DNA from: Thermodesulfobium narugense DSM 14796
Lineage (GTDB): Bacteria > Thermodesulfobiota > Thermodesulfobiia > Thermodesulfobiales > Thermodesulfobiaceae
Assembly (NCBI RefSeq): GCF_000212395.1
Contig: NC_015499.1
Span: forward strand, 709,501-773,500
Length of the DNA stretch: 64,000 nucleotides
Direction: 5' to 3'
The notes under the pieces were generated by a model. The model did not search any database and was not told the origin of the DNA. It saw nothing but the letters and a program-made list of their open reading frames with translations. The translations under genes were made by a program, and so were the position numbers. Positions 48,684 to 50,994 of this stretch are shown in pieces (within the stretch, counting starts at the first letter, position 1; each line of letters begins with the position of its first letter).

Positions 48684-50222
48684 TTAAAAATTTTCTTCCT
48701 GTTCTGGTGATACAAAGATTGTCCTCTCATTTCTGTAAAATATGGTTCCGCTTTTTTTCCCTTTTGGTTTTGTAAGATATTTTACTTGAGTAAAAACTAC
48801 TTCAACTTCTTTTTCTTTCTTGCCCTTTGAAAAGCGAGCACAAATTTGAGCAGCTCTCTTAACATCTGTTTGATCTAATTCCCTTTTTGTGGTTTTTAGA
48901 ATTACGTAGCTTCCAGGATAATTTCTTGTATGAAACCACCAATCATTTGGATTTGAAATCTTTAACAGATTAATATTAGAGTTAGCATTTTTTCCAACCA
49001 ACGCAATAGTGTAGTCATCAAAGTCAATTTTTATGTAATCCTTTGGTTTATCCTTTTCTTTATGTTTTTTATCTTTAGCATTTTTTTCTACTTTTAAATT
49101 TTCAGGTTGCTCAGATTTAACTTTTTGTATTTGAGATTCTAAAGAATTTATCATCCTTTCAATTTTTGATAGCGCGCTTTTCATTTTTTTTGATTTTTCA
49201 AATAATTCGCTTGCAAACTTGCCTGGGGTTTTGCTTGTATTCCCAATGACTTCACCGTTTAAAACATACTGGTTATTTACAATATCAATTTTATCTAAAT
49301 TATTTAAAATATTTTGAGCTTTTGATTGTATATCTTTCCAGTGTAAATTTTTTTCATAATCCTTTTTAACATTTTCAAGTTTTTTTTCCAGGTATGCTAT
49401 CTTTTTTCTTTTTTGTGCTTCAAACTCTCTTTTTTTCTTCTCTTCGTTTAACTCAATAATTTTATTTATACCAACTGTATAGATATTTTCTAAAAAAGAG
49501 CTTTTATCAAAATTTAAAGACAAAATTAGTTCGTTGTTTAGTATTTTTGAATTTAAATTTTCAAAATCAGCGTTTATCCATTGAATTATCCTTTGAGGAG
49601 TCCAATCCTTTATTTCTTCAATAACGTTTTTTGGAATGCCAAACGTCTTTTCTGATAAGGCTTTTTCAACGCCTAACTCTGACAGGATCTCAAGAGCAAT
49701 TTCTTTTGGTTCAAGCTTCTTGGTTGACTTTTCGGGATATTGATACTCTATTCCGGGAAGAATCTTTCTTCTTAAAGGATCGTCAGGAATTATTTCTTTG
49801 TAAGATATTTTAATAATATTATCTACCAGTACAATTGCATTAGTTTTGTTTGTAATTAACTCAAAGACAACGCCTACTTTAGGAAGTTTCCCTACAGGGA
49901 AGTCATTTGAAAAAGAAATTTTTAAAACTTTATCGAACCTGTTTATTGTAATTCCAGATATTTTAGACCCTATTAAGTGTCTAGTTAGAAAATCGTAAAA
50001 GGGATGTTTGTATGGCTCTAACTTTATGACTTTTTCCTTTGAAATGCCTATAAATGGAACACTATTTACAAGGGATACAAAGAAGAAGATAGCACCCTCT
50101 TCTTTGTCCCAGAGATTTAGAACAAAACAGTCTTTATAAAATTGTATTTTGCTGACTTCTTTTTTAATTAATCTGTCTTTTGCTTCTAAAAAACTTAAAT
50201 AAAGCGTTAAAGTATTAAACAG
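48684..50222 (-). CDS. rqcH: RqcH/NFACT-family ribosome quality control protein (probable CTG start)
   Basis: RqcH binds obstructed 50S subunits and adds C-terminal Ala tails to nascent chains. The C-terminal NFACT-R part is clear: DDYTIALVGKNANSNINLL, WWFHTRNYPGSYVILKT and QICARFSKGKKEKEVEV. A coiled coil (about residues 250-420) precedes it. The first standard start codon, TTG 49523, would leave only this half (279 residues). Upstream the frame stays open for 233 codons and encodes an NFACT-N-like region, with no ATG, GTG or TTG. Near its 5' end a CTG at 50222 lies about 10 bases after GGAG, so I place the start there (512 residues). It overlaps thi4 by 8 bases. Confidence 0.88.
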   Translation of the reverse strand: MFNTLTLYLSFLEAKDRLIKKEVSKIQFYKDCFVLNLWDKEEGAIFFFVSLVNSVPFIGISKEKVIKLEPYKHPFYDFLTRHLIGSKISGITINRFDKVLKISFSNDFPVGKLPKVGVVFELITNKTNAIVLVDNIIKISYKEIIPDDPLRRKILPGIEYQYPEKSTKKLEPKEIALEILSELGVEKALSEKTFGIPKNVIEEIKDWTPQRIIQWINADFENLNSKILNNELILSLNFDKSSFLENIYTVGINKIIELNEEKKKREFEAQKRKKIAYLEKKLENVKKDYEKNLHWKDIQSKAQNILNNLDKIDIVNNQYVLNGEVIGNTSKTPGKFASELFEKSKKMKSALSKIERMINSLESQIQKVKSEQPENLKVEKNAKDKKHKEKDKPKDYIKIDFDDYTIALVGKNANSNINLLKISNPNDWWFHTRNYPGSYVILKTTKRELDQTDVKRAAQICARFSKGKKEKEVEVVFTQVKYLTKPKGKKSGTIFYRNERTIFVSPEQEENF

Positions 50223-50994
50223 TTTTAATATACTCCATTATTAGTTTTGCTGCTTTTAATCCTGATTTTATCATTCCTCCGAATATTGGTCCCATTCTGC
50301 TTCCGCCATCAACATTATTGGCTGCCATTCCAGATACAAATAAGCCATTTGCTAACATTTTTGTATTGTTTACGGTATCTTCTTCTCCCTGAACTGCGTT
50401 CATAAAGTGTTCCTTCCTAAGAGGTAGCTGAACTCTTCTTGAATAGATGTTTGCGGCTATAGCATCGTGACCAGTGGAGTCAAGAACGGCTTTTGTCTGA
50501 AAAACCATTGGATCCACGTGGAGTCCTGCTATTTCTATACCTGTATTGTTTACTACTACGCCTGTAATTGCGTTGTTTGTATATTCTAAATCTACAACGG
50601 TCATAAGATTGAAAAGCTTAACGTTTTGAGTTTTAAGCGCTTTAGAAATTAGTTGGCTTGCAAAAAGGCAAGAATCTACTACTAGCGCATCTTCATCTTC
50701 TATAAAGGGAAGTTCTAACTCATTTAAATAGTCTTTTAGGTCTTTTTGTATAACAACTTTATTAAAAGACATAGAGCCACCCCAGGTGCCTCCACCAGGA
50801 GAGAGCTTTCTTTCCATAATTACTACTTTATATCCTGAATTCCCAAGTTCTCTTGCAGCAGTTAGGCCAGATGGACCTCCTCCTACTATTATAACGTCAG
50901 AAATAAGCGCATCAGTAAGGTTCTCGAAGTAATGTTTTAGAATTAATTTACTTACCTTTACGTCAGTAACAGGATTAAGAAAATGTTTTGTCAT
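50215..50994 (-). CDS. thi4: Sulfide-dependent thiazole synthase Thi4
   Basis: 259 residues, FAD/NAD-linked thiazole synthase family. GGGPSG lies at 38-43, inside DVIIVGGGPSGLTAARELG. ERKLSPGGGTWGGSM follows, as does the C-terminal DGGSRMGPIFGGMIKSG. In yeast Thi4 a Cys gives up its sulfur once. Here the same region reads AGLHVDP with His159, as in methanogen enzymes that use free sulfide catalytically. It makes the thiamine thiazole from NAD, glycine and sulfide, which suits an anaerobic sulfidic cell. AAGGAGG site; no TPP riboswitch seen upstream. Confidence 0.93.
   Translation of the reverse strand: MTKHFLNPVTDVKVSKLILKHYFENLTDALISDVIIVGGGPSGLTAARELGNSGYKVVIMERKLSPGGGTWGGSMSFNKVVIQKDLKDYLNELELPFIEDEDALVVDSCLFASQLISKALKTQNVKLFNLMTVVDLEYTNNAITGVVVNNTGIEIAGLHVDPMVFQTKAVLDSTGHDAIAANIYSRRVQLPLRKEHFMNAVQGEEDTVNNTKMLANGLFVSGMAANNVDGGSRMGPIFGGMIKSGLKAAKLIMEYIKTV

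Follow-up and report, generated by a model that had tools for sequence, protein, structure and literature searches.

A conserved CTG overlapping the end of thi4 is very likely the start codon of rqcH in Thermodesulfobium

Gene callers accept only ATG, GTG, and TTG as start codons; genes with rarer starts are therefore cut or lost. One gene with such a start is infC, which begins with ATT in Escherichia coli and with ATC in Streptomyces, and in E. coli this rare start is a basis for autoregulation of IF3. RqcH of Bacillus subtilis has a standard start. Streptomyces sigR, with an extended AGGAGGTG site, starts with GTC and is repressed by IF3; codon, use, and repression have been shown experimentally, and this start, conserved in the genus, was missed or misplaced by annotation (PMC5472188). 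CUG accounts for 0.024% of bacterial starts and reaches 0.86% of the efficiency of AUG in E. coli (PMC11497404). Coupling through reinitiation is known at 8-nt gene overlaps, where the known pairs use ATG, GTG, or TTG (PMC10666635).

We analyzed a window of 64,000 nt from the complete genome (1.9 Mb) of Thermodesulfobium narugense DSM 14796, in which rqcH very likely begins at a CTG that is conserved throughout the genus (Table 1). As with sigR, the proposed start is none of ATG, GTG, or TTG, is conserved within a genus, and would be missed or misplaced by annotation; unlike sigR, rqcH presents a CTG, a short Shine-Dalgarno-like site, and an overlap with the upstream gene, and its start is proposed here from sequence. 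The thi4/rqcH pair shares a start/stop overlap of exactly 8 nt with the described termination-reinitiation pairs but differs from them in having CTG in place of a standard start. The infC gene, which appears to start with ATA in this genus, likewise presents a rare start kept by evolution; however, infC encodes IF3 itself, whereas rqcH encodes a rescue factor for which we know of no link to IF3.

Table 1. Features of the thi4/rqcH locus and genes of the genus with proposed rare starts (plain numbers are window positions).
Feature	Start codon and context	Position	Strand	Conservation or support
rqcH (NFACT/RqcH family) CDS read from CTG, 512 aa, TAA included	CTG	48684..50222	-	frame conserved in 4/4 genomes
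Proposed start codon of rqcH	CTG	50220..50222	-	conserved in 4/4 genomes of the genus
In-frame TAA closing the rqcH frame upstream, this genome		50238..50240	-	sequence
First standard start in rqcH frame, codon 234	TTG	49521..49523	-	not conserved as start
NFACT_N match, residues 13-207, wholly upstream of first standard start		49602..50186	-	Pfam, E 2.6e-14
NFACT-R_1 match, residues 405-491, overlapped by NFACT-R_2		48750..49010	-	Pfam
thi4-type sulfide-dependent ADP-thiazole synthase; last 8 nt overlap rqcH start (CTGTTTAA)		50215..50994	-	
GGAG, Shine-Dalgarno-like, 10 nt before CTG, within thi4 codons ATG GAG		50233..50236	-	conserved in 4/4 genomes
nrnA	CTG	L037:711	+	4/4 genomes
Lipid-A acyltransferase-like gene	CTG after AAGGGAG	L035:14790	-	4/4 genomes
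RNase J gene	ATT six bases after AGGAGG	L036:15936	-	4/4 genomes
GNAT N-acetyltransferase	ATT	L170:7052	-	4/4 genomes
Gfo/Idh oxidoreductase	ATT	L180:1330	+	4/4 genomes
livH	ATT	L162:14015	+	4/4 genomes
infC	ATA after GGAGGTGA	L026 (G000), L024, L025, L027		4/4 genomes
ftsQ, less certain	CTG after AGGAGG	L039:16171	+	GTG one codon earlier in two genomes
gmhB-like, less certain	ATT in two genomes, upstream TTG in other two	L164:6373	-	
murA, less certain		L036:10387-10525	+	no standard start before codon 34-47, 4/4 genomes

On the minus strand, the TAA at 50240-50238 is followed by TGG AGT ATA TTA AAA CTG (50222-50220) TTT AAT ACT, and the frame then stays open to its stop at 48684, with ATG, GTG, and TTG absent from the CTG through codon 233. 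The original prediction had described a TAA just upstream of this frame, a GGAG ahead of the CTG, and no standard start until codon 234, where the TTG at 49523 would yield a fragment of 279 residues; all of this was borne out, including the GGAG (at 50236-50233) and a 279-aa ORF. An ATA located three codons before the CTG, which the original prediction did not mention, is also open, in this genome only; it is excluded as the rqcH start because in all three congeners the frame is closed by a TAA two codons ahead of the CTG.

The comparison set comprised this genome and three other genomes of the genus, with RqcH proteins 85, 71, and 70% identical to that of T. narugense over the full 512 residues; as the latter two genomes are close to each other, the four represent three independent lineages. 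AAA-CTG-TTT is present at the equivalent position in all four genomes, and none of the four contains a stop codon within the rqcH frame. The first standard starts of the congener frames are found at codons 25, 78, and 99. Codons 2-233 presented dN/dS values of 0.05-0.09 where computable, and codons 2-25 presented values of 0.05-0.22 (Nei-Gojobori, with synonymous sites near saturation in the distant pairs), indicating purifying selection. Retention of a frame without a standard start in four genomes (three lineages), together with its coding-type evolution, exceeds chance. The CTG is located one codon ahead of the Phe that matches the F-D of relatives, with NFACT_N beginning directly after; a sample of 30 RqcH genes from another phylum showed a standard start (ATG, GTG, or TTG) a few codons before the F-D position in 29 cases. 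Because the frame is closed upstream by TAA and the standard starts are scattered, CTG alone is left as a near-cognate candidate that all four genomes share at the N-terminus of the family.

The part of rqcH that lacks standard starts, which had been proposed to encode an NFACT-N-like domain, does match NFACT_N (PF05833; 53.3 bits, cut-off 31), and NFACT-R was matched through PF05670 (36.8 bits, cut-off 29.8) and PF18297 (42.5 bits, cut-off 26.9). The Asp-Arg pair of NFACT-N and the N-terminal Phe-Asp have been linked to tRNA recognition. In this genus, Asp97 is kept and Arg98 is replaced by Lys (GLDRIM of B. subtilis reads RFDKVL here), while Asn or Ser takes the place of the Asp of Phe-Asp in each of the four genomes. 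D-R and F-D in B. subtilis contrast with D-K and F-N or F-S here, and these changes may affect alanine tailing. The CTG-read product has both NFACT_N and NFACT-R in common with B. subtilis RqcH and is collinear with it (PDB 7AQC, 7AS8), which, together with the NFACT_N match, argues that the upstream half represents a genuine domain. In the NCBIfam search, this product matched no equivalog model of bacterial RqcH, and the equivalog cut-off was not reached by the best model, archaeal RqcH (75.7 bits, cut-off 400), with the EfbA exception model scoring 92.4 (cut-off 1025); the product is therefore assigned to the NFACT/RqcH family by its domains and not as a proven equivalog. An AlphaFold model of the CTG product, built with four sequences, was too poor for use (mean pLDDT 57.9, pTM 0.28).

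The 8-nt overlap between thi4 and rqcH is present in all four genomes and is the shortest possible in that phase; thi4 stops with TAA in T. narugense and with TAG in the three congeners. Shine-Dalgarno distances before standard starts in the genus range from 3 to 13 nt (mostly 4-9 nt), so that the GGAG represents a weak site yet one within range. Since the GGAG and the CTG lie inside thi4 codons (ATG GAG and ACT GTT, respectively), their conservation could partly come from Thi4; ACT is the commonest Thr codon (46%), whereas GAG represents just 26% of Glu codons and is nonetheless present in each of the four genomes. Across the final 12 codons of thi4, synonymous change showed no clear reduction among the four genomes, and conservation of the GGAG and the CTG by itself is therefore weak evidence; the strong evidence for the CTG is the closed upstream frame and the absence of other candidates. 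Predicted RNA folds around the CTG were weak and not shared among the genomes.

The main rival to a CTG start is a +1 frameshift on the final codons of thi4 (ACT GTT TAA/TAG), which would produce a Thi4-RqcH fusion and leave rqcH without a start of its own. The overlap of the two frames in every genome, with the rqcH frame continuing without a gap, fits this reading, and the thi4 stop could act as a slow A-site codon. However, Val-GUU slipping to UUU gives poor pairing, the stop varies between TAA and TAG, and the site lacks a conserved stimulatory Shine-Dalgarno at short spacing, the element that characterizes the prfB frameshift. In addition, the N-terminus of the RqcH family coincides exactly with the junction, and a frameshift is unnecessary, given that the CTG frames of nrnA and the acyltransferase-like gene open directly after a stop codon; we consider a fusion quite unlikely. 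About equally unlikely is initiation at codon 26, which would yield RqcH minus its first helix; a standard or near-cognate codon is present there in every genome (ATA, TTG, CTG, and CTG), but it differs between species, the ATA of T. narugense is not preceded by a Shine-Dalgarno, and codons 2-25, which are under purifying selection, correspond to the conserved first helix of NFACT-N.

Mechanical ORF calling would choose the TTG at 49523 as the first standard start, implying that only the C-terminal 279 aa are made or that the gene is decaying. This is very improbable, as the TTG is not conserved, the 233 codons upstream of it evolve at the low dN/dS given above, and the frame is stop-free in all genomes. 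Removal of the start by a sequencing or assembly error, finally, is refuted: four independent, separately sequenced genomes share both the CTG and the absence of a standard start. The original prediction had named a base error here, along with orthologues carrying an ATG at this position, as findings that would speak against it; none of the orthologues of the genus has an ATG there.

Under a CTG start, translation of rqcH would begin at a codon overlapping the final two codons and the stop of thi4. Initiation on the CUG would be carried out by a 30S subunit positioned through the GGAG, or by a ribosome finishing thi4 eight bases away, and ordinary fMet-tRNA would read the codon to give Met-Phe-Asn-Thr... 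in T. narugense and Met-Phe-Ser-Thr... in the congeners. Coupling of rqcH to thi4 translation is plausible; it is attractive because CUG is so poor a start, which reinitiation could make work. Bacteria normally discriminate against CUG, which is a weak start; RqcH synthesis would therefore be expected to be low, linked to translation of thi4, and probably responsive to IF3. We consider this mechanism the most likely one; unlike the conserved sequence features, use of the CTG in the cell, coupling, and IF3 sensitivity are what we infer from them. The thi4/rqcH pair, with its conserved CTG, would represent a natural case for how a bacterium copes with a start that has about 1% of the efficiency of ATG in E. 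coli, and would allow one to ask whether reinitiation after an overlapping gene compensates.

Rare start codons (i.e., CTG, ATT, and ATA) seem to be in use in several further genes of the genus, judging from a screen of approximately 40% of the genome against a relative with 85% identity. A total of 641 orthologous frames (266 + 375), from which antisense shadows had been removed, were screened for coding sequence conserved between both genomes ahead of the first standard start, and candidates were checked in the two more distant genomes. In nrnA, the CTG is constant while the two preceding codons vary (ATA GTT, GCA GTT, ACC GGA, and ACA GGA), and the first standard start is located at codons 36-60 after the CTG; neither nrnA nor the acyltransferase-like gene has an overlap like that with thi4. 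The acyltransferase-like product is approximately 20 residues short relative to its relatives, and the first ATG of the RNase J gene falls inside the first conserved strands. Family profiles reach to within approximately 14 residues of the proposed N-termini of RNase J, NrnA, MurA, GNAT, LivH, GmhB-like, and Gfo/Idh, and these frames are therefore not arbitrary extensions. The Shine-Dalgarno of infC contains a GTG that would misdirect gene calling. Three further candidates were rejected, including cysS with an ATC start (conserved TTG in congeners), a gtrA-like gene with an ATT start (upstream TTG in congeners), and an ftsI-like gene, in which an overlapping gene accounts for the conservation seen upstream. 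The original prediction had regarded a CTG on a rescue factor as notable for translation-linked control; the CTG itself is supported and may serve such control, but because the genus has several other conserved rare-start genes, rqcH is one of a number of such genes and not a special case of a rescue factor. Automatic annotation would miss half of rqcH as well as the N-terminal regions of RNase J, NrnA, and further proteins.

At a rate of 0.024%, 0.15 CTG starts would be expected among 641 genes, as compared to the three firm ones found (P = 5e-4), a rate that rests on annotation hardly looking for CTG; rare starts may be under-recorded in bacteria generally. The same screen in one unrelated control genus (G039/G043, 370 frames) yielded one match, a relA/spoT-like gene. 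With identical criteria, 8 of 592 frames in this genus and 1 of 328 in the control genus were found (one-sided p = 0.11, not significant), in a comparison that is imperfect because the two pairs are not equally divergent (median identity 92% and 76%, respectively); enrichment of rare starts in the genus is therefore suggested, not established. In the control relA/spoT-like gene (L125-L142, L143-L160), approximately 52 codons ahead of the first standard start are conserved, and an ATT follows an AAGGTGA-like sequence. Thermodesulfobium makes abundant use of TTG, which starts 53 of the 153 frames that have a clear Shine-Dalgarno.

An unusual initiator tRNA as the cause of the rare starts was rejected, as this tRNA is ordinary (CAT anticodon, three G-C pairs). 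The IF3 C-domain of the genus (L024-L027) scored 82-86 bits, the lowest group among 41 genomes, and presents an ESEKH stretch where most genomes have EGRxM; this divergent domain is a lead for a possible cause of the rare starts. An Arg-to-Ile change in IF3 at E. coli position 129 was rejected as the cause of relaxed starts, as many bacteria have a residue other than Arg there. That the rare starts represent a shared control, by which genes of initiation (infC), RNA decay (RNase J and nrnA), and ribosome rescue (rqcH) would rise and fall together with IF3 activity in a lineage with a divergent IF3 C-domain, is unlikely; if they do prove to be a set, the lineage could serve for studying start-codon discrimination by IF3 as a form of regulation. 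Outside the genus, the idea that rqcH is generally prone to rare starts was rejected, since one genome of another phylum (G007) alone presented an ATC-type opening, its congener G085 has GTG there, and 29 of the 30 sampled genes have standard starts. The RqcH frame of G007 (L013, near position 271) opens with ATC ATC GAG AAG GCC ATT and extends for 42 codons without a standard start.
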